This document shows positions 10,678-63,017 of a stretch of 64,000 nt of DNA, one piece after another. The position numbers and the translations under genes were made by a program. Source of the DNA: Rhea pennata (lineage: Eukaryota; Chordata; Aves; Rheiformes; Rheidae). A model generated the notes under the pieces. That model did no database searches, had not been told where the DNA came from, and worked only from the letters and a program-made list of their open reading frames with translations. How positions within the stretch are numbered: the first letter of the stretch is position 1; each line of letters opens with the position of its first letter. The stretch lies in the NCBI RefSeq assembly GCF_028389875.1, contig NC_084672.1:1695501-1759500 (forward strand). Direction: 5' to 3'.

Positions 10678-11029
10678 GAAAGCAAAACAAATCAGAAAGC
10701 GTCAGCATGTTGCGGAGTCATAAAAGGCGGCACCGATCTGCCCGGCGCTTGCTCAGCCCGGCGGGGGAGGCCGGGGCGCAGCGGGGTGCAGCAAGGGGTG
10801 CAGCTGGGAGCGCGGGGTACCCCGGAGCAAAGGGCCCCCCCGCGGGAAGGGGGGGGCCGGGGCCGCGCGGGAGCCTCCGGGGAGCCGCCGCCGAGTGCCC
10901 GCAGCGCCCCGGCGCCGGGGGGCCCGGCCCCGCGCGTCCCGTCGGCGAGGCTGCAGTGCCCTCCTGTGGGCACAGCTCCTCCGGCTGAACCCACCTCCAG
11001 GCTCCGGGGCGCCCACGGCCACCCGTCCC

Positions 11030-11545
11030 CTCCACGCCAAGGTGCTCCCGGACACCCGTCCCTTGCATCCCCAAATCCGTGCGAGGGTGCTCCAGGACAT
11101 CCATCCCCTCCACCCCAAGGTGCTCCCAGACACCCATCCCTTCCGTCCCCAAATCCGTGCAAGGGTGCTCCAGGACACCCACTTCCTGCACCCCGAAGTT
11201 CTCCAGGACTCCACCCTTTCCACGTCAAAATGCCCAGGGACCCCCGTCCCTTCCACCCCACAGGGTTCAGGCCACCCGTCCCCTCCATCCCAAAGCACCC
11301 AGGGACCCCCATGCCCTCAACCCCAAAGCCCTGCGAGGGCGCTCCAGGCCACCCATCCCCTCCACCCCAAAGCACACTGGGCCCCCCATCCCCTCCACCC
11401 CAAAGGGCTCTGGGACACCTTTTCCTTTCACCCAAATCTGTGCAAGGGTGCTCCAAGACATCCATCTCCTGCACCTCAAAGTGCTCCAGGACACCCGTCC
11501 CCTCCACCCTGCAGGGTCCAGGACACCCATCCCAGGGCACCCTTT
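11030..11545. repeat. Minisatellite with ~78-bp higher-order unit
   Basis: Degenerate copies of a C-rich unit (core GGTGCTCC, GGACACCC, ATCCCCTCC, ACCCCAA) fill this block. Two sub-unit types recur 78 bp apart (11040 to 11118, and 11084 to 11162), so the basic array is a dimer that decays to the right. It sits just downstream of NOX5. The long frames across it on both strands are tandem-repeat artefacts. Confidence 0.8.
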
Positions 11546-12036: not shown

Positions 12037-15000
12037 CTGGGGGTGCCCGAGGGAGGAGAGGACCTCGCACGGGCCACCCCGGCGCTGGGGACCGTTGGAA
12101 ACGGGGCTCGCACCCCCCAGCACGCATCCGCCCGGCCCCACCTGGCCCCAGTCGGGGTGGCCGAGCTGGGTCCTGGTCCGCAGCCCCGTGATCGAGTCCT
12201 TCTGCTCCTTGGCCGCCAGCAGGTCCAGGGCCATCTGCAGCCCGACGGCCCTCACGTCGTTCCCGCCCGGGGCCGACGTCATGTACAGGTGCATCTCCAG
12301 GAAGGGCCCCGGGCGTCGGGGGCGGTCAGCGGGGGTGGCCGGCCGGCCACCCCGCGGCTCCCGCGGCCGCCCGCCGCTGCCGACCTCCCGGCTCCCCCTC
12401 GCCCTGCTCCTTCTCCAGCTTGGCCAGGAGGCTGAGGAACCACTCGAGGTGCTTCTGGTCCCGGTTTATCCAGAAGTCCACGTGCGAGGGCGCAGCTGTG
12501 GCTCGGACGCGTGGCCAGAAGAGCACGGAGGACGCAGCGGAGCCGCCCCGCCGCGGCCCCGAGCCGGCGCTCTCCGAGGCCGGGACGGCTCCAAGAAGCT
12601 CCAGGTCGCGCTGGAGCGGCCGGGACGCCGCAGAGCGCCGGAGGACGCGTCCGCCCGGGCACCGCGTCTCGCCCGTCCCGGGGCGGCACCAACCTGTACA
12701 TGATGCTCTGCAAAATGGAGGCGAAGGGGGTGACGCCGATGCCGGCGGCGATGAGCACCGCGTGCTCCGAGGCGAAGATCCGCCGCGTCGGGGTCCCGTA
12801 GGGGCCGTCGACGTAGCACTGGGAGAGGCGAGCGGGAGCGCGGGGAGGAAGCCGCGCGCGTCAGGGCGCCCGCGCCCGCGCGCCGGAGCAGACGCTCGGC
12901 CGTCTGCAGCGGAAAGCGACGGCGCTCCTCCTCGTCCCCGGCGGAGCAGGACCCGCGGGGGCCGGCCCCGAGCGCGCCGGGGGCCGGGAGCCCCCTCACC
13001 TGGACGTCGCAGAGCCGGCGGCCGCCCGGCGCGCCGCACGCCTGGCGGGCGGAGGGCATGGCGTTACCGGCGCCGCTCCCCCGCGAGCAGCCTGCTTCCT
13101 GAGCTTGTTTTTTTTTTTTTTTTCCTTTTTTTTCTTTTTTTGGCGTGTGTGTTTCGCCCCCTCAGCTTTGCAGATCTGCCTCGCCCGAGATGTGCGCCAG
13201 CCCGTCCCCCCCCCCCCGGCTCCCGCCCAAGGGCCCCGCTCGAGCCAGCCGCAGCTTCGGGGACCGCTGGGACAGCGAACCCGCGGCCAACGCGCCTAGA
13301 AACATCATTTGCACGATAAAAGAAAAAAAGAAAAGCAAGAAGGAGGTTTGACCGCCCCGCTGCGGGGGGGCCCAGGTGCAGGCTGCCGGACCGGGGGTGC
13401 GAGGGACGCGCGTCCCGTCCGCGGCTCAAGCCCATCGCGCTTACGTCTGCCGGCGGCGCGTCCTCGCCGGCGCGCTCCCCGGCGGCTCGGTACGCCGTCA
13501 GCTCCACCCCGCCGTCCGCGCCGGCGGCCACGGGCCCCCGGAGCCGGGCGCGCTGGGAACGCCTTCCTGAAGCGGCCCCGGGGAGCGCTCGGCGTGCGGG
13601 CAGCAGCCGCGGCGCAGGGCTCGCCGGCGACGCGGGTGGCCGGGGCCGAGCGCCACGACGCAGCCCGAGCCGAAACGGCAGCATCGGCGTGCCCGACTGG
13701 CCCCTTCCCGCCCCGCCGGCGAGCAGAGCCGCCGCGCGAACCGGGCTGCTCGGGCGCGCTGCTGATGCTGAACGGGTGCCACTCGTCCGCGACGGCCGGG
13801 ACGTTCAGGTAGACGTAGTCCCCGGGCTGGCGGCGGAAAGACGGCGGCCTCTCGATCACCAAGTGGGTCACCTGGATTAAACAGGGAGGCCGGGAGCACC
13901 GCGGCGCGCGAGCGAGCGTGCCGCGTCTGCAGCCCCCCCGCAGCACGGCCCGGGGCCGACCTCCGGGCGAAGGCGCCGGGATCATCCGCCAAACGCCCGC
14001 TCTTCTTCTCCCGGCAGATTGCACAAAGCACAATTGCAGATTGCACCCCGGGCGGCTTCGCCAGCAGACGAGCCAAGACGCGGCGCTCGGTTTGCAAAGT
14101 AGCAAACGTGGCTGACGGGCACTGGTTGCATTTTTCGTATTGGTTTGTGCTACTCCGTCCCCCGGAACGGGAAAGGGCTTTGGCAGCGGGCGGGCGCGGG
14201 CGCCGCGGGAGCCGGCCGCGCCGCACCTCGGCCGGCAGCAGGTCGACCTCCACGATGCGCAGCCCGCCGGCGCGCCGCGCGGCCAGGCCGGCCGCCGTCT
14301 CCAGCCCGAAGAGGCAGCCGGGCACCGCGAACCACTTCCAGAAGCTGGGGCCGCGCAGGAGCAGCAGGGCCCGGACGAAGACGTAGGAGAGGTGGGTCCA
14401 GTAGAAGAGCTGCGGGGAGGGGGGCGGGTTGGGGGTCGAGGCGAGGGGGTTCGCGGCGGGCGGGAGGGACCGGTGCCGCGCCGGGAGCAGCACCGCGGGC
14501 TGCCAGCGCCTCCCTGCATGCGACGGGCGACGGGCGGGCGCGGGGATGCGGCTGCACACGGCGGGACGGGAGGGCGGCGGAGCCGGCCGGCGCGGGTACC
14601 TCGAAGCGGCCGCTCCTGCAGCCGCGGGGGGTGGAGAAGGCCAGCACGGTGGCGAGGAGCAGCAGGAGGGCCGGTCCCGTGGGCCCCGCTGCGCCGCCGG
14701 CCCCGCCGCCGCCGCCGCCACGCCGTCAGCGGGTGCTCCCAGAGCGCGGGCCGCCGCTCGCCCCGCGCCAGCCGGCCTGCGCGGAGGCGCCGTCGGACGG
14801 GCCCGGCCCCGCATCTCCCCCCCGCCCCGGCCGCGTTCCCAGATTGCTGCAGAATTCACTGAATTCCTGATCTCTCTTTTTTTTTTCCTCCTTTTTTCCA
14901 AGCCGGGGAGAGCCCAGCGGCTCCCTTCGTGCATTTTCGCGAAGGGGAGCCCCGCGCCCCGGCGCTGCGCCGGCACGGCCGAGCCCGGCTGCGAGAGCCG

Positions 15001-16498
15001 CTAGAGGCGGGCAGCAGACAGCGCACGGGGCGCGCGGCGCTGCACGCGCCGGCCTCCCGGGACCCCTGCACCCACCAGGGACCCTGCATCCCCCCCCAGG
15101 GCATGTGCAACCCTCCGGGGACCCCTGCACCCCCCAGGGACCCTGCATCCCCCCCCCCAGGGCATGTGCAACCCTCCCGGGACCCCTGCACCCCCCAGGG
15201 ACCCTGCATCCCCCCCCCCCCGGGGCATGTGCAACCCTCCTGGGACCCCTGCACCCACCAGGGACCCTGCATCCCCTGCGTGGCATGTGCAACCCTCCGG
15301 GGACCCTGCACCCCCCTGGGGACCCTGCAGCCCTCCCGGGGGCACATGCAACCCTGCTGGGGCCCCTGCATCCGTCCCGGGGCCCCTGCATCCCCTCCCC
15401 GCACCTCTGCCAGCCCACGTCCCCCAGGACCGACGGGTGGCCCGGGGAGGGGCGATGCCCAGCCCTGACCCGCCGCGGACAGAAGCCCCTCGCCGCGGGG
15501 GAGCTGCTGCTTACTGAAGTTGGCCACGTGCGCGGCCGCGTGGACCGCGGCCAGCGCCGCCACCACGTAGCCCACGAGCTGGTGGAAATCCACGGCGGGG
15601 TCCAGCGGCAAGGCTCTGGCGACCCAGGTGGCCCGCGGCCGGGTCAGGCAGCGCCGCAGCTCGAGCACCTCCGGGACGGGGAGAGGGCGATGCGGGAACG
15701 GCCGAGCCCCCCTCCCTCCGCCCGGGGCTCCGGCGACCGCCTCGGCCCGGGGGGGCTCCCGGGCGCCCCGGCCCCCCGCGCCCGCACTCACGGCGACGAA
15801 GGCACAGTTGAAGTTCAGGCACTGGCTGCAGGCACGGGCCAGCGGCACCCCGGCGCCGCGGCCGGCGTGGCCCAGGGCGGCCAGGGCGAAGAGCAGCAGG
15901 TTGAGGCCGGCGTCGGCGCTCCGTTCTCGTTTTACCCCCCCCCCTCCCGGCACGTAAAACAACGCGCCAAGTCGGGAAGAGCCTTTTGCTGCGGCTTGCA
16001 GCTCCCGCGGGGCAGCAGGACCCTCTTGCAGCGAGGGCCGGCTCCGAGCTGCCCCCTCCTTGGTTCGCGCAACGCAAGAGGGGGGTTGACACGAGCTGCC
16101 TCGGAAATCGCAGCGGCTGCGCGGAAGCAGGAATTAACCGATTTCTCGTCTGCTTACTGTCCACGTCGTAAACCTGGAAGAGGAACCTCAGCTTGTCCAT
16201 CTTGTCCCCGTGCGCGAGCGTGCTCAGGGCTTTCAGCAGCTCCTCCAGGCTGACGGTCCCGCTCCCGTCGGAGTCGAACAGCGCGAAGAACCGCTCGGCA
16301 AAGAAGGACTGCGGGAAGGGGGCCGGGCGCGCTCGGAGGGCTGCGGGCGCTCCCGCCGCCGCGGCCGCGAGCCAGCCCCTCGCCTCCTTCACCTCCAGAG
16401 CCGCCTTGAACCCCTCCAGGCCAATCTCCTCGTCGTCCCCCGCGATGCTCGCCAACTGCCTCGCCACCCTCGCCAGCCACCGGGCATCGGCGCCCACG
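11905..16498 (-). CDS. NOX5: NADPH oxidase 5 (NOX5), incomplete or decaying
   Basis: NOX5 is the Ca2+-activated NADPH oxidase: cytosolic EF-hands switch on a six-helix heme membrane domain, and a C-terminal FAD/NADPH dehydrogenase makes superoxide. Eleven minus-strand exon-like segments match human NOX5 in order: EF-hands 1-2, CLNF..F helix, TM3 with its two histidines, TM4-5, VTHL..HPFSISS (FAD), CYVDGPYGTPTRR..GIGVTPF (NADPH), WINRDQ, and the C-terminus ending FFEENF. About 490 residues are recovered, against roughly 765 in human isoform 1. Not found: a start ATG, EF-hands 3-4 and TM1, the loop before TM4, the FAD-NADPH linker with the regulatory insert, and the loop before WINRDQ. A TM5 heme histidine is Arg, one Ile codon is missing before WINRDQ, and two expected acceptors lack AG. 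No stop lies inside a recognised segment. Assembly gaps, an unusual lineage-specific form, or a unitary pseudogene are all possible. The identity is certain; functionality is not. Confidence 0.93.
12142..12308 (-). CDS. NOX5: NOX5 exon, C-terminal dehydrogenase
   Basis: It encodes PFLEMHLYMTSAPGGNDVR..GLQMALDLLA..DSITGL and ends HPDWGQ, with a clean donor (CAG then GTGGGG at 12141). The human counterpart is FLELHMYMTSALGKNDMK..GRPDWSK. The start is uncertain: the phase-compatible acceptor position (12310-12309) reads GG instead of AG after a C-rich tract, while the nearest AG (12296-12295) would start the exon at ATG in the wrong phase for the preceding exon. Confidence 0.85.
12385..12495 (-). 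CDS. NOX5: NOX5 exon with WINRDQ strand
   Basis: It encodes APSHVDFWINRDQKHLEWFL, then a Lys/Glu-rich helix ending GEPG. It matches the human segment VDFIWINRDQRSFEWFVSLL of the NADPH lobe, but lacks the Ile between DF and WI. The donor is GGGAG then GTCGGC (phase 1). The acceptor candidate CACAG at 12496 leaves two overhanging bases, which does not fit the phase-2 end of the preceding recognised exon, so another exon is expected between them and was not found. Confidence 0.85.
12694..12818 (-). CDS. NOX5: NOX5 exon with NADPH-binding GIGVTPF
   Basis: It encodes CYVDGPYGTPTRRIF, then SEHAVLIAAGIGVTPF and ASILQSIMYR, almost residue for residue as in human NOX5. The glycine-rich GAGIG-type motif becomes AAGIGVTPF. 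The acceptor is CTCTCCCAG, and the donor is TACAG then GTTGGT (phase 2). This is the best-preserved exon of the gene. Confidence 0.95.
13108..13141. repeat. Poly(T) tract in NOX5 intron
   Basis: A run of T broken only by CC and C. On the NOX5 (minus) strand it is a poly(A)-like tract and lies in the intron where the FAD-NADPH linker exon is expected. Confidence 0.9.
13742..13871 (-). CDS. NOX5: NOX5 exon with FAD-binding HPFSISS
   Basis: It encodes VTHLVIERPPSF, then RRQPGDYVYLNVP and EWHPFSISSAPEQ. HPFSISS is the flavin-binding HPFT-type motif; the human sequence is HPFTISSAPEQ. The acceptor is strong (CTGTTTAATCCAG at 13872). The end is weak: the only GT near the human boundary follows CAGCCCG at 13742, giving a poor donor (GTTCGC). 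Confidence 0.93.
14227..14409 (-). CDS. NOX5: NOX5 exon with TM5-TM6; heme His replaced
   Basis: It encodes exactly 61 codons, from LFYWTHLSYVFVR through LLLLRGPSFWKW and GLETAAGLAAR to VEVDLLPAE, phase 0 at both ends. It has a canonical acceptor (CCCCGCAG) and donor (GAG then GTGCGG). The first TM5 histidine (WTHL) is present. The second, 13 residues on, which is the heme ligand in NOX2 and reads IFHG in human NOX5, is Arg here (LLRG, codon CGC). Confidence 0.95.
14600..14688 (-). CDS. NOX5: NOX5 exon with TM4
   Basis: It encodes GPTGPALLLLLATVLAF, then STPRGCRSGRFE, matching human SPTGVALLLL..RRSGHFE, with donor GAG then GTACCC (phase 0). With the acceptor GGCGCAG at 14689 it starts with two overhanging bases, which is in phase with the preceding recognised exon (phase 1). 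Direct joining would therefore keep the frame but omit the extracellular loop that human NOX5 has here. Confidence 0.8.
15055..15395. repeat. ~60-bp C-rich minisatellite in NOX5 intron
   Basis: Five to six copies of a unit of 60-61 bp with the elements CCCCTGCACCC, AGGGACCCTGCATCC and GGGCATGTGCAACCC; later copies are shortened. It fills the intron in which the exon for the missing extracellular loop of NOX5 should lie. Frames through it encode short Gly/Pro/Cys repeats and are not genes. Confidence 0.9.
15515..15668 (-). CDS. NOX5: NOX5 exon with TM2-TM3 heme histidines
   Basis: It encodes VLELRRCLTRPRATWVARAL, then LDPAVDFHQLVGYVVAAL and VHAAAHVANF. It matches human MLRRCLTWLRATW..FHQLMGYVVV..VHTVAHTVNF. 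The two TM3 histidines 14 residues apart (FHQL and AVH) are kept. The acceptor is CCCGTCCCGGAG at 15669, and the donor is TTCA then GTAAGC (phase 1). Confidence 0.93.
15792..15918 (-). CDS. NOX5: NOX5 exon, start of membrane domain (partial)
   Basis: It encodes ADAGLNLLLFALAALGHAG, then ACSQCLNFNCAFVA, matching human YAGLHVLLFGLAASAH..GQCLNFDCSFIA. The donor is perfect (GCC then GTGAGT at 15791; phase 0). The start is unclear: a G9 run and purine-rich sequence lie directly upstream and the only nearby AG (15920-15919) has no pyrimidine tract. The first part of the human exon is missing. Confidence 0.85.
16158..16308 (-). CDS. NOX5: NOX5 exon with EF-hand 2
   Basis: It encodes SFFAERFFALFDSDGSGTVS, then LEELLKALSTL and DKLRFLFQVYDVD. 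DSDGSGTVSLEE is a complete Ca2+-binding EF loop (human DSDRSGTITLQE). The acceptor is CCTTCCCGCAG, and the donor is GACA then GTAAGC (phase 1). The next exon in human carries EF-hands 3-4, but only about 240 bp separate this exon from the membrane-domain exon and no EF-hand is encoded there. Confidence 0.95.
16384..16498 (-). CDS. NOX5: NOX5 N-terminal exon, EF-hand 1 (no ATG)
   Basis: It encodes VGADARWLARVARQLASIAG, then DDEEIGLEGFKAALEVKE, matching human EEDARWLRWVTQQFKTIAGEDGEISLQEFKAALHVKE, a degenerate EF-hand. The frame is open back to a stop at 16606-16608 without any ATG; a GTG falls near the position of the human MSAEE start. No AG acceptor borders the C/T-rich tract upstream. The human boundary (after VKE) would need a GC donor (GAG then GCGAGG, 16383); a GT donor three codons earlier (GAG then GTGAAG, 16392) is also in phase. 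Confidence 0.85.
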
Positions 16499-48749: not shown

Positions 48750-49711
48750 CACTCCCACCGAGTTGGTGCTCGCTTGTCAACTGTGCTACAGTTTATCCAC
48801 CCCCGACACGGGTAAAACAGAACGAAATAAGAAAGGGGGGGGGGAGGAAAAAAAAAAAGAGGGGAAAGGAAACACGCCACACGCGAAACACTCCGAGGAG
48901 CCAGGCGGTTTCCCAGCGGTTCTCGCCTTTTTGCCAGCGCTTCGAGCGACTCGCGCGGGTTTTTCCGCCCTCCAGTCCTTCCCCGACCGCGCGCCCTTCC
49001 CCTCAGCGGCCCGGGCCCTGCCCGCACTAAATTAAAATTTAAAAAAAAAGGAAAAATTGAAGGAAAAGCGGGTGCGAGGCCCGCGCTCCCGCCGCCGCCC
49101 CTCAGCGGCGGCAGCCGCCCCTCCCCCCGCGCCTCCCTCACGGCCCCGCGCGCCATCGCGCCCGCTCCGCTCCGCGCCCGCTCCGCGCCTTTCCCGCCCC
49201 TGCCGCCTCGGCGCCCCTGCCCCGCGCCGGCCCTAGCGGCGCTGCCCGCGCCGCGCCTCGGCGCCTCCTCCCCCAGGATCCGGAAGGCGGGGGAAGCGCG
49301 GGGAGGAGGAAAGAAGGGAGGGGGGGGGCGGCGGGAGAGCGCGCCCCATCGCCGCCGCGGAGCCGCCGCCGCTCCTTCCCCAGCAGCCACCAGCACGGAA
49401 TGATCCTCCGCTCCCAGCCGGGCTGTCCCCCTGGCCGGCTTCGCCGCTCTCCCATTGGCTCCCGCCGCCCTTTCTCCCGCCCCCTGGGCTCCGGCCGCCG
49501 GCTGCGGCGCGGCGGTTGGCGGCCGCGGACGTCAATCAAGCGTGAGCGCCCGCCTCCGCAGCTATCAGGTTAGTGTTCGCCGCGGCGCTGGGGCTCGGGA
49601 TTCCGAGCGGAGCTGGTTGCGCCCTCACCGCGCTGGCTTTGGGGGGGTCTGCATCGGCGTCGGTGCACGAGCGGGGCCGGCGACAGCGAGCCACCTCCGC
49701 CAGCCGCGGAC
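48750..49711 (+). promoter_or_regulatory. ANP32A: ANP32A CpG-island promoter and 5' UTR
   Basis: CpG density climbs from 48.8 kb to a strong island centred on 49.1-49.7 kb. An inverted CCAAT box (CCCATTGG at 49451-49458), GC-rich CCGCCCCC motifs just downstream and a CRE-like GACGTCAATC at 49528-49537 sit 180-260 bp before the ATG. There is no TATA box. The start site is most likely between 49540 and 49620. A consensus donor-like CAG then GTTAGT at 49568/49569 could mark an alternative non-coding first exon. GC-rich DNA extending to 49.0 kb on the minus side would allow divergent transcription, but no gene was seen there. Confidence 0.8.
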
Positions 49712-49765
49712 ATGGACATGAAGAAAAGGATCCACTTAGAGCTGCGGAACAGGACGCCCTCAGAT
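49712..49765 (+). CDS. ANP32A: ANP32A coding exon 1 (rest of gene outside window)
   Basis: The exon encodes MDMKKRIHLELRNRTPSD and is followed at once by a consensus donor (GAT then GTAAGC), phase 0, as in other vertebrates, where VKELVLDN follows in exon 2. The ATG has G at -3 and G at +4. ANP32A is an acidic leucine-rich nuclear phosphoprotein (chaperone and phosphatase-inhibitor roles, mRNA export factor), and the bird protein is known as a host cofactor of avian influenza polymerase. The MDMKK start is the avian form (mammals have MEMGR). The LRR body, the bird-specific repeated exon and the acidic tail are not in the window, so intron 1 is longer than 14.2 kb. The divergent order with NOX5 fits human synteny. 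Confidence 0.95.
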
Positions 49766-49774
49766 GTAAGCAAT

Positions 49775-49776
<2 letters not shown>

Positions 49777-49812
<36 letters not shown>

Positions 49813-49834
49813 ATCCCACATTTTTTTTTTTTTT
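49777..49834 (+). repeat. A33 and T14 runs beside the ANP32A donor
   Basis: Eleven bases after the exon 1 boundary comes A33 (49777-49809), then 11 bases, then T14 (49821-49834) followed by AG. In the pre-mRNA the A and U runs could pair into a hairpin close to the 5' splice site. The T14-AG also mimics a 3' splice site, but it would define an intron of only about 70 bases. Confidence 0.9.
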
Positions 49835-49839
49835 AGGAG

Positions 49840-50684
49840 GGGGGTGCATTCAAACCCCGGCGAGGTTTGGGGGTGCGGTGGCACGGGAGTGGGGAAGGTG
49901 CCAGCCGGCGCGGGGGCCGCTGCTGCCCTTGAGGTGCCTACCTGTGTGTGTGTATATGTGTCTGTGCACCCAATTTGGGGTGCCCGAAGGCGCACGCGTT
50001 GTGGTCTAGGGGGAAACTATAAGCTGCTCCTGACTCGGCTGGTGTGAAATGCATTAAAGGGGCTTGCAGTGCATTAAATAAAAATAAGTTGGTGCTCCTC
50101 TCTGGCGTGTTTAGTTTGCAAATATTTGTACTGGGTGCTGGGCAGGGAGAGACAGACAGAGACTGTGAGTGAGTTGCAAATGGTTTAGTTTAAAGTGCGT
50201 CTTCATTTCTTTGCAGTGATCAGGCAAGAGAGACTGGGGAGCCATATTTGTAACTTTGTAGTCCTCATGAACGCGCCCTTTCTCTCTCTCTCTCCCTCTC
50301 TCCAGATGCTGAGAAGATTTTTTTTAAAAAAAGAATTTTAAACAAATGCTTAGCGTTTTTAGAGATCTGATATCGTTGCCGGTAGTGTAAGCGTTGAATA
50401 AAAATATTGCAAAAAAAATGCACTCTCCACCCCCCTCCATCCACACACACACATACACACTCATACACACATATACACCACACACACAAAAAAGGCTGGA
50501 TGCGTGTGTGTGCGCGTGTTTTTTGCTTTTTAGCTGTTTTTTTTTTTCCCACCTTTCCCCCCCTTCCCTCCCCTTCTTCCTCGGGGCTGGACTTAAGGTT
50601 GTTGTGCAGCGTCTGCCTGAATAAACGAGAACAAGAAACTTTGTCAGGACAAAAATAGTCCGGAGTGGGGAGGGGAAGGGGGGG
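49840..50684 (+). other. ANP32A intron 1, proximal part with simple repeats
   Basis: Intronic sequence with a CT tract (50278-50305) that ends CCAG, a CA/ATAC microsatellite (50442-50487) and several T and A runs. No exon was recognised. Confidence 0.6.
50442..50487. repeat. CA-rich microsatellite
   Basis: Imperfect (AC)n with AT interruptions. Confidence 0.9.
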
Positions 50685-51969
50685 GTGAGTAGATGCATGA
50701 GGAGGAGAGGGGGGGGCGCGCTGCCGCGGTGGCACCGGAGCGGCGGCGGCGGCGGGGCTCGAACTCGCGGCGCGGCGGCCGCGAGGCAGCGGCTTCCCCG
50801 CGCGGGGCTGGCGGCGGGCAGCGGCCGCGGCCGTTACATAATGGCTGGGGCCGCTCGCGCGGCGCCGTGCGCGCGGGGACGGGAAGGAGGGAGAGGAGAG
50901 GAGGGAGGGGAGGCGGCTCCGCGCCCCCCGCTCGCTCGCTCGCTCCATCCGTGCGTCCATCCATCCCTCCCGCCGCCCCGGCGGAATGGGAACGTACCTC
51001 TCCGGGAAGCAAGGGCGTGCGCGGGGCGAGGCGGCCGGACGCGGCCCCGCGGCTTTTCCGCTCGGCCGTTAAAACGCCTGACGGACAAAGATGGGCAGAT
51101 TTATGTAACCTTGCTCTTTAAACTTTAAAAAGTCCTGGGCGAGGAGGAGGAGAAGGAGGGAGGAGGGCTCTCGCCGGAGCCGTCGCTCGGCGGCCAAGGG
51201 CGGCGCGGCCCGCGGCGCCTCATTGTTCGCGCGGGGACGGGCGGAGGGACAAAGCGGCTCCCGCCGAGCCGCCTCCGTCCCGCCGCCGGAGTGCCCCGCT
51301 CCCCCCCTCCGTGAAACCGTTTCCTCTCCGTCTCGTCGCGTTGGCAGCGCCACCGTCCACCCCAAGTAGGACGCGGCGCCATGTTTCCCCGCCGCCGCCT
51401 TCCCTCACGAGTCGCGGCGGGACGGGCGGCGGCGGCCGTTACCGAGCGCCGCTGGCGCCGCGGCGGGACGGCCCTCGCCGCCTCCCGCCGTTACGTGCCG
51501 GCGGGGGACGCGGTGGGAAGGGGGAGAGGAGCGGCCGTGTTTTGGTGGCGAACTGCGCCATGAGGCGCTGCCGCCGAGGGCGTTTTCCTGAGGCGGCGGC
51601 GGCGGCGGCGGGCGGGGGGGGGGGGGGGCAGAGGCGCCGCGCGGCCGTTGGGGCGGCCGTTGGGGCGCGGAGGGGGCGCGCGCGCCGCCGCCGCCGACAT
51701 GACGGACCGCGGCTGCCATTTTGCCGCCGCTGTCGCCGAGCGCAGGGAAGGAGGGAGGGAGGCTCGTAACGGCGCGGAGCCGGAGCGGGGCAGCGCCGGG
51801 GCCGGGGCCCGGCTCGCTCCCGCCGCCGGGGGGCCGAGAGGGGCCGGCGGCGGCCGCGGAGCGGGGTGTTCGGGGCGGCCGGAGGCTCCGATGCGGCTTC
51901 CGCAGGGAGGCAGCGCGGTACTGACGAGCTGGGAATACGCCTTCTTCCTGGGCAGGGCCCTGCGAGAAG
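50685..51969 (+). promoter_or_regulatory. Second CpG island in ANP32A intron 1, possible alternative first exon
   Basis: A second strong CpG island about 1 kb downstream of coding exon 1. It carries YY1-type cores (GCCATGTTT near 51379, GCCATTTTGCC near 51714) and a bZIP-like TTACATAATGG near 50834, and ends at 51969 with a consensus plus-strand donor (GAGAAG then GTAGGT). The 79 bases before the donor, from an ATG at 51891, read MRLPQGGSAVLTSWEYAFFL, then GRALREG, less GC-biased than the surroundings. That frame reaches the donor in phase 1, whereas ANP32A exon 2 needs phase 0, so splicing into ANP32A would not join the frames. It may be a 5' non-coding alternative exon or the start of a separate transcript. 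Confidence 0.45.
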
Positions 51970-54785
51970 GTAGGTCTCCCTTTCCCCTTTTTATTTTTTA
52001 TCTTTTTATTTATTTATTAAATATTTTTTTCCACTTTTTACTGATAAATCTCCCAGTCCTACTGCGGGAGATTTTTCAGCGCTTATTTACATGCCCCGTT
52101 GCAAACGGACCCAACGTGAAAATACGGGGCCCGAAGCCTCTCTGGTACAAGCCCCGCTTAGCTTTTTTTTTTTTTTTTTTTTTTCCTCCCCGCTTAGCTT
52201 TTGTTCCGTTTTTGCTCTGTTTTTGACTTCCTGCAGGAGAAAGTTGAGAGCGCGTTGGTTTGGGTGGCATTTTGCTTTCGTTTGTAATTCAGAGCGATTT
52301 TTGATTAAGAAATCTAGGCCAAAACGGCTGGTCATAAATGCTCATCTGACCTGCCATTTTTTTACCTGTCATTTTTGTTACCTTTAATTCTGTCAGTGTG
52401 TTCCATGTATTAGTCCTTTCAGGTAGCATGCGTAATCATACTTATTTTAAATATTTCTGGTTTCGTACAAAGAGGAGAATGTCAGTTGGAAATGCTGTGC
52501 TGTTAATAATCGATTTTGTAAAACTTATTGGCTATAGATGCATGCATACGCTGTTTTGTCATGGAGAATTACGTGTACACTTTGGACCCTGTCTGTCTTA
52601 AATACATACTAAAATAAAGTCTATTTACATCCAGCTAGTATTTTTGGTAAAATGTCTGAAATAGAGTTCTAGAAGTGATTCTGATGCCAGTATTTAATTT
52701 ATTCATGAACTTTAATAAGTATTTCAACATGAACAAAATAATTCTGTAAATTTGTCTTTATTAGTCTATACTTTCATAGATAGGCAGTATTTGTCATATG
52801 TCCTGTGGGAATCATTATTTCCATGTTTCAAAGTTAGTATAAATACATTTGGGCGGGGCGGGGGAACCTTTGCTTGCACAAATAGAAGCAAATTAATTTG
52901 TCTTGAAGCTTCGGCCCTGTATGTGCCTAAGTTTTGCAGTGCATCTTACATTTATTGCATACTGTTATGTCAATTTGCAGTATCAAAACTTTTTTTGTAA
53001 ATCAAAGTTAGGTAAGAGAATGTTGATAAGGTGTTTTACTTCTTTCTGAACTTGCACTAATATTTATAGTTTGAGATGGCTAATACAGTATTTGTGTAGA
53101 ATACTGATTAATGCTATGTAACGTAACTGGCTACTTTGAGATGTTAAGTCATATAATCCTGTAGGGTCAGTATGCATATCAGTTAACAGAACTGTATGAT
53201 TATGATCTCTGAAAGTGGATGGTATAGGAGCTATTTCTTTCTCAGCTTATTTTTTTCTTAGTTCTCCATTTTTATGGGAATTCAGTGTTGGTAATAAGCA
53301 TGGGGTTTTGGTACCTGGAATTTGTTTTTCTGTGCTTAGACTGTGTTAGACAGTCAGCATTGAGCCTTTGCATCTGCTTCCTGCCTTGCCCAGATATTTC
53401 AACTTTTCTTTTTAGCCCATTGCTCATAATGATCACTTAAGGTAGTACATTTACTGTAGTCTTCATCACTTTGCTTATCTTGCTTACAATATTAGTTTTC
53501 TGTTAAAAATAACTATCTGCTAGGAATTAGTCCGGTACAATTACTTTGCATAGATTTCCTCCAGACCCATCAGCTATTAGTAATAAAACTACTTACCTCT
53601 GCAGAGAAGATGCTCACCTGGGCAGATTTGTGAGGTCTTTTTGTTTGTTTGTTTCATTTGTATAGCGGAAAGTGCAACTCATTAATAAAACACGAAAAAT
53701 TTAACACAAGCTCATTACTAACACTCTTCTCAGCTGTGCGACATAGGGGTAGGTTTTTGAAATTGTGCACAAAATCTCATCTTCTGTGGTTTAGCGCTAC
53801 CATGCTGGTTCACTTAGCCTGAGGAATGAATATTGCTTCTAAAAAGTTTTATCAGCTCAAAATTGTGACAGTGATAACATACTGACAGTAACGCTGGCTA
53901 TTTCTTATGCTTTGTCAACTCTCTACTGCATTTTAGAACTCATTTGACAGTGTGATTTCTCTAGTTTTCTGTAGTTTTTAATACTAAAAGAAAATACAGT
54001 GCAAGCTTCTATGCATAGTGGTGTTTTAGACGAAAATATAAACAAAAGGACTCTTTTCCCCAAGCTAGTTCCGTATTGTGATGTATGCAATAACAGTGGA
54101 GAGTTTAAACTGATACACATCTCTTTAGAGACTTACGTTTAAAAAATTATTTTGGTATTGTAATGGGATATAGGCATATGTTTTTACCTTCCCCAGGCTG
54201 AACAATCTCAAAATAGAAGGGGAATGTACTCTCGATTTGAAATAAAGTGGAGCAAGCAATGTTGTGTGGTTGTGTCTAGAGTGGCATGAGATCGGCACAT
54301 CCAAACTCTATTCAGCATGCTTGGATTAAATGATTCAAGACTGCAAAAATTCGTGATAATACTTATGTGGTTGAGGGAAGGGCACAACTGTACACAACTG
54401 TAGCAAAAAGAAAGCCTTTTTTTTTCCAGAATTCCCAAGCTTGCATATTAGAATATCTGAATTTCTAGTTGCAAACCTTTACAATAAGTGTCCTGTCACA
54501 ACATGCATATTCCTCTTGGAACAACTACTACCCACAAAAAGCAGGCCTGGAGAAAGTATGTGATGTCTGAGCTGTCCTCACTGAAATTCAGTCTGATTTC
54601 TCCTCCAAGTACTGGACTGATCAGTACAATATTTGGCAAATCCTATTCCTTTTTTCTTAAGCTGGATCAAATCATAAGCATCTGAAAGAAACTGTGCACA
54701 CAATTGAAAAGCACCAATAACTGGAGCTGAAACTGGTTGCCTGATTTTTCTGTTTTCTCTGTGATGTTGCTAGAAAGGTGTAACA

Positions 54786-62942: not shown

Positions 62943-63017
62943 CTGCCCATACAGGGACTGAACCTGTGACCTTGGCATTAGCAGCACCACGCTCTAACTA
63001 GCTGAGCTAAACCTGCA
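62943..63017 (-). tRNA. tRNA-like sequence, Ile-type body with GCT anticodon (likely pseudogene)
   Basis: On the minus strand TAGCTCAGCTAGTTAGAG (A box, D arm), TGGTG-CTGCTAA-TGCCA (anticodon arm), AGGTC and ACAGG-TTCAGTC-CCTGT (T arm, B box) follow in correct spacing. The body closely resembles nuclear tRNA-Ile, whose GAT form has CTGATAAC in the loop, but the anticodon positions read GCT, a serine anticodon. The D arm pairs fully, the anticodon and T stems pair with wobbles, but the acceptor stem has two mismatches, one extra T sits at the 8/9 position and position 58 is G instead of A. It is probably a degenerate copy; transcription is possible. It lies antisense in ANP32A intron 1. Confidence 0.6.

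Follow-up and report, generated by a model that had tools for sequence, protein, structure and literature searches.

The NOX5 locus of Rhea pennata, contained in the 64,000-nucleotide stretch of DNA analysed here (the window), is probably a recently disabled and decaying single-copy gene, in which replacement of a heme-ligating histidine by arginine (His369Arg in human NOX5 numbering) is one of several disabling changes. Three of the four heme-ligating histidines of TM3 and TM5 are present at the locus, and position 369 is Arg. The preliminary description of this DNA had pointed to an exon encoding TM5 of NOX5 and to the loss of its second heme ligand through a CGC codon; our alignments agree on all three points, with the codon, which had been put near 14356, fixed at the position given in Table 1. 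It had also called the rest of the exon intact, which implies a lone ligand change in a sound gene. This picture is not supported: EF-hands 3–4 and TM1 are absent, exon 6 carries a frame change, the exons for part of the FAD domain and for the CxxC loop are likewise unrecognisable, and Trp363 in the same helix has become Arg. Loss of a ligand histidine is expected if the gene has decayed or if the sequence is damaged.

The minus-strand exon that holds the ligand change (exon 7) encodes WTHLSYVFVRALLLLRG, with its reading starting LFYWTHLSYVFVRALLLLRGPSFWKW..., and is flanked by ccccgcag (AG acceptor) before and gtgcgg (GT donor) after. It aligns without gaps to residues 351–410 of human NOX5 (phmmer, E 1.1e-17), its reading frame is open and 35 of its 61 residues are identical to human. 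The first TM5 ligand, human His356, is retained as CAC (14394–14392, minus strand), and the Arg at the position of human His369 stands 13 residues after it; His209 and His222, the TM5 histidines of NOX2, show the same spacing of 13 (PMC8228183). Given the gapless alignment and this spacing, there is no substitute histidine in register. Alignment A1 set the gene against human NOX5, human DUOX1, csNOX5 and three Rhea pennata paralogues; the ligand column holds His in all six comparators, including the three paralogues present in the same assembly, and Arg in Rhea pennata NOX5 only. A DUOX-like paralogue (L008) was left unscored, as its exon seems to stop short of the ligand position. The names NOX1-, NOX2-, NOX3- and DUOX-like for the paralogues are provisional and follow gene placement and, for NOX2, also exon identity. 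A survey of prokaryotes for the ligand pattern gave 321 pattern matches and no relatives. As for the second change in the TM5 helix, the residue adjoining Trp363, Val362, sits between both hemes in the NOX5 structure (PMC11088703).

Four iron-coordinating histidines are a defining feature of the NOX family (PMC9421330), and in NOX2 structures the outer heme is held by His115 and His222 (PMC13296129; the NOX2 heme ligands are also given in PMC9568551). Because the Arg occupies the equivalent of NOX2 His222, the outer heme would be the one affected, and, by analogy with NOX2, His369Arg should impair it. The functional forecast of the preliminary description holds to this extent; the altered electron transfer that it also considered is not indicated in a gene damaged elsewhere.

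The exon map of the locus is given in Table 1, in which the human exon boundaries were assumed rather than derived from a search. A query with human NOX5 covered 496 of 714 residues (human 6–719) and left four blocks unmatched, 91–199, 294–312, 455–517 and 561–587. Since 294–312 corresponds to the out-of-frame part of exon 6, which is still recognisable, the truly missing blocks are three.

Table 1 Features of the NOX5 locus, in the order of the gene, with positions in the window
Feature	Position	Strand	Remark
NOX5 exon 1 (EF-hand 1, human from residue 6)	16384..16494	-	phmmer with human 6–94, codon walk, tblastn
NOX5 exon 2 (EF-hand 2)	16158..16308	-	acceptor cccgcag, donor A/gtaagc
Junction replacing EF-hands 3–4, linker and TM1 (human 91–199)	15912..16157	-	run of ten G inside
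3′ part of NOX5 exon 4 (TM2 region)	15792..15911	-	donor GCC/gtgagt
NOX5 exon 5 (TM3)	15515..15668	-	both TM3 heme histidines kept (FHQ, VHAAAH)
NOX5 exon 6 (TM4)	14600..14776	-	one-base frame change between 14718 and 14686, CGG run
NOX5 exon 7 (TM5 and start of TM6)	14227..14409	-	exon holding the ligand change
CGG, Arg at human Trp363	14371..14373	-	second change in the TM5 helix
CGC, Arg at human NOX5 His369 (NOX2 His222)	14353..14355	-	alignment and codon walk
NOX5 exon 8 (FAD-binding HPFSISSAPE)	13742..13871	-	one codon fewer than human
NOX5 exon 10 (NADPH-binding core)	12694..12818	-	identity to human 93%
NOX5 exon after the missing CxxC-loop exon (VDF-WINRDQ)	12386..12481	-	one codon fewer than human
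NOX5 penultimate exon	12142..12309	-	nearest upstream AG 48 nt off
NOX5 last exon, ENF then stop codon	11905..12036	-	identity to human 79%

One of these lesions lies toward the N-terminus. Only EF-hands 1–2 of the four were found, and human 91–199 has no match in the window. Exon 2 and what is left of exon 4 are 247 nt apart, whereas human 91–199 requires 327 nt, which therefore cannot fit into the gap. The TM1 segment is absent as assembled, so that the locus does not show the six-TM layout. For human 455–517 and 561–587, nothing convincing was found in the window, where the best matches (E 0.08 and 0.2) fell outside the gene. Searches of the genome gave no support for relocation of the missing exons elsewhere. 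Human 91–207 without its first residues had no match at E<=1, an empty answer that is uninformative by itself, and human 457–597 had six matches, of which the one at the locus was the exon 10 part only (query 62–104), with query 1–54 uncovered. Another coding lesion is in exon 6, where the frame leading into exon 7 meets a stop just upstream within the exon; the frame change might be bypassed by use of a cryptic acceptor within exon 6. No stop occurs within the matched exon reading frames.

Profile searches matched several parts of the gene. Exons 1 and 2 scored jointly reach 34.1 bits with Pfam EF-hand_1, and in the dehydrogenase region NAD_binding_6 (87.5 bits) and FAD_binding_8 (34.4 bits in exon 8, cut-off 22) are both over their cut-offs, with human 455–517 and 561–587 unmatched. 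In the membrane part, exon 5 and the exon 4 part together score 21.7 bits with Ferric_reduct, under the cut-off of 28. In a genome-wide Ferric_reduct search, which gave 19 matches, five of them above the cut-off, the NOX5 TM3 exon was a weak match (22.3 bits), whereas the TM5 exon did not appear at all.

Softer signs of damage are seen at the ends of the gene. Exon 1 has no in-frame ATG, GTG stands at the expected start, and ATG is also lacking in the 39 codons between residue 6 and the first upstream stop; a GC dinucleotide occupies the presumed donor, and the 48 nt before the penultimate exon are devoid of AG. Intron 1 (16309–16383), 75 nt long, contains neither a GT nor an in-frame stop, and exons 1 and 2 thereby form a single open frame with a 25-residue insertion. 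Judged by this open frame, intron 1 could be retained, and it is possible that a GC donor or an upstream coding exon softens the defects of exon 1 and intron 1. Two tandem repeats accompany the gene, a 61-bp GC-rich minisatellite of 5.8 copies (window 15053–15401) in the intron between exons 5 and 6 and a 78-bp repeat of 2.1 copies (window 11020–11181) just downstream of the stop codon. Elsewhere in the window, a GC- and CpG-rich block with 55–74% GC per kb lies at about 49000–52000 amid AT-rich sequence, with no gene identified in it, and a tRNA-like element at 62950–63010 (minus strand) scores 34.8 bits, where the gathering score is 29; the element may be a tRNA-derived repeat.

The NOX5 exon has one DNA match in the genome and is thus single copy. 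Two further protein matches were weak (E 0.07 and 7.1) and both contained stops, so they do not represent a second NOX5 copy with His; the introns exclude a processed pseudogene. GLCE was located by a single C5-epim_C match (E 1.3e-72), which lies at C10:1640849-1641424 on the same strand as NOX5, with about 66 kb separating it from the stop codon of NOX5. In the human genome the two genes are neighbours, and the position beside GLCE appears to be the orthologous one. SPESP1, sought as a second synteny marker, gave no match, and its controls also gave none. Synteny around Nox5 is reported to be conserved in chicken (PMC1940245). The single copy, the orthologous place and the kept introns, together with the disabling coding lesions as assembled (deletion, frame change and ligand loss), are what one would expect of a unitary pseudogene.

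The base composition of the gene is extreme. The NOX5 gene body, which sits on a 25.5-Mb contig at a distance of 1.7 Mb from one of its ends, has a GC content of 73.2%, and over 478 codons the GC fraction is 0.667, 0.446 and 0.950 at the first, second and third positions. The inferred codon steps from human run 115.8 toward G/C, 27.7 away and 55.5 neutral; this count is unpolarised, the human codons are inferred and the steps are non-independent, so that its p-value of 6e-14 is descriptive only. In the TM5 exon the steps are 24.5 toward G/C versus 0.7 away, and both TM5 arginines fit single G/C-ward steps, A-to-G for His369 and T-to-C for Trp363. Compared with human, the net residue change is a gain of 46 Gly, Ala, Arg and Pro and a loss of 35 Phe, Tyr, Met, Ile, Asn and Lys. 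GC-rich regions of bird genomes have been described as hotspots of accelerated protein evolution, with rising Gly, Ala, Arg and Pro, and gene conversion has been proposed to underlie them (Huttener et al. 2021, PMC8449477); no mention of NOX5 was found in that text.

These features suggest how the gene may have decayed. GC-biased gene conversion, which we infer as the cause, probably favoured G/C-ward change in a GC-rich block near the contig end and would have pushed residues toward Ala, Gly, Arg and Pro, including His369Arg and Trp363Arg; any order among the lesions would be conjectural. A protein made from the locus, if any, would be without EF-hands 3–4, TM1, part of the FAD domain and an outer-heme ligand, and with those losses transmembrane electron transfer to oxygen should fail. 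Against decay, exon 10 and the last exon are well kept, and three of the four ligands are still in place, as are the motifs for FAD and NADPH binding. The conservation of exon 10 and the last exon implies that any loss was recent, and a third-position GC of 0.95 versus 0.45 at the second indicates that coding constraint lasted until recently. Since chicken and swan goose NOX5 sequences were used in a published tree (PMC4950256), loss of the gene in all birds is unlikely.

Damage of this kind might also be technical: NOX5 would be alive, and through mis-assembly or mis-calling of GC-rich sequence exons would have dropped out, a base would have been inserted and the Arg, too, might be an artefact. 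We regard this as unlikely, though it has to be taken seriously. The composition of the gene body, the G run at the deletion junction and the CGG run at the frame change are what such an error would call for; false exon loss, indels and base errors are documented in GC-rich bird sequence (PMC9516821), and Kawahara et al. put rare exceptions at invariant NOX residues down to mis-sequencing or tolerance (PMC1940245). However, the contig reads through, with no N in the window, and introns and minisatellites are present. Recovery of other NOX genes from the same genome by the same method bears on this point. With human NOX2 as the query for both, and with a few matches running partly into introns, the NOX2-like gene was covered at 570 of 570 residues and the GC-rich NOX1-like gene at 520 of 570, which indicates that the assembly and the search are able to recover NOX genes, although the flanks of the NOX1-like gene, with 0.55–0.72 GC, do not reach the level of the NOX5 gene body. 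In addition, long-read errors do not typically take the form of a clean A-to-G call in non-repetitive sequence. We infer that the lesions are genuine and not technical artefacts.

If the lesions are real, the gene might still work while evolving very fast under GC-biased gene conversion, with some exons having become unrecognisable and the ligand truly changed or replaced. GC-rich bird genes do accelerate, and some of the fast-evolving ones have been shown to be expressed (PMC8449477); the dehydrogenase exons, moreover, are still well conserved. But however far the sequence may have diverged, 327 nt do not fit into the 247-nt gap unless the segment was shortened, and the exon 6 frame change is left unexplained. 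Chicken GLUT4, whose functional residues are conserved, avoids Arg and Pro in its membrane helices (PMC8449477), whereas here Arg enters TM5 at the ligand itself. Because the ligand and the membrane helices are altered, unlike in GLUT4, loss of function is favoured, and a working, fast-evolving NOX5 seems to us improbable. A functional enzyme of altered chemistry, a one-heme or arginine-modified NOX5 with another electron acceptor, is highly improbable, since, for all that the inner-heme ligands and nucleotide-binding motifs are retained, the failure to find TM1, EF-hands 3–4 and the human 455–517 exon means that this is not a ligand swap in a complete enzyme, and replacement of NOX2 His209 by Arg leaves no protein in patients (PMC1940245).

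Some of these ideas can be joined to our preferred reading of a recently disabled gene. It is conceivable, and we advance it with little confidence, that GC-biased gene conversion drove the death of NOX5 in one bird lineage by fixing the changes in the ligand, the start codon, the splice sites and TM5, and that a dehydrogenase-like remnant with another acceptor might persist. The case, if true, would raise the question of whether GC-biased gene conversion is able to destroy a conserved gene. It also carries a caution: a striking change of a catalytic residue calls for a look at the whole gene and, where bird sequence is GC-rich, at the raw reads as well.

We found no paper on NOX5 loss in birds in the open-licence literature searched, judged by titles and abstract openings. 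The best-known loss is that of rodents, the NOX5 gene not having been found in mouse and rat (Kawahara et al. 2007, PMC1940245). A younger, independent loss in a bird, if true, would help to date when the calcium-activated oxidase became dispensable and to find the reason.

Compared with known systems, the locus resembles NOX5 (human, 6SZ5 and 8U85; csNOX5, 5O0T) in its GLCE neighbourhood, the TM3 histidines, the first TM5 histidine, the FAD and NADPH motifs and the C-terminal ENF. It differs from NOX5 in the second TM5 histidine, which is Arg, in the exon 6 frame change of the Rhea pennata copy, and in that EF-hands 3–4, TM1 and stretches matching human 455–517 and 561–587 were not found. Like the rodent loss, it would concern a vertebrate lineage in which the locus is conserved but NOX5 no longer works; unlike in mouse and rat, most exons here are still readable, suggesting a younger loss (PMC1940245). 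With the GC-rich, fast-evolving bird genes it shares high GC, rising Gly, Ala, Arg and Pro, accelerated protein change and gene conversion as the proposed cause. GLUT4 among them, however, has preserved its functional residues and its transmembrane nature (PMC8449477), while this locus has lost a catalytic ligand and entire segments.
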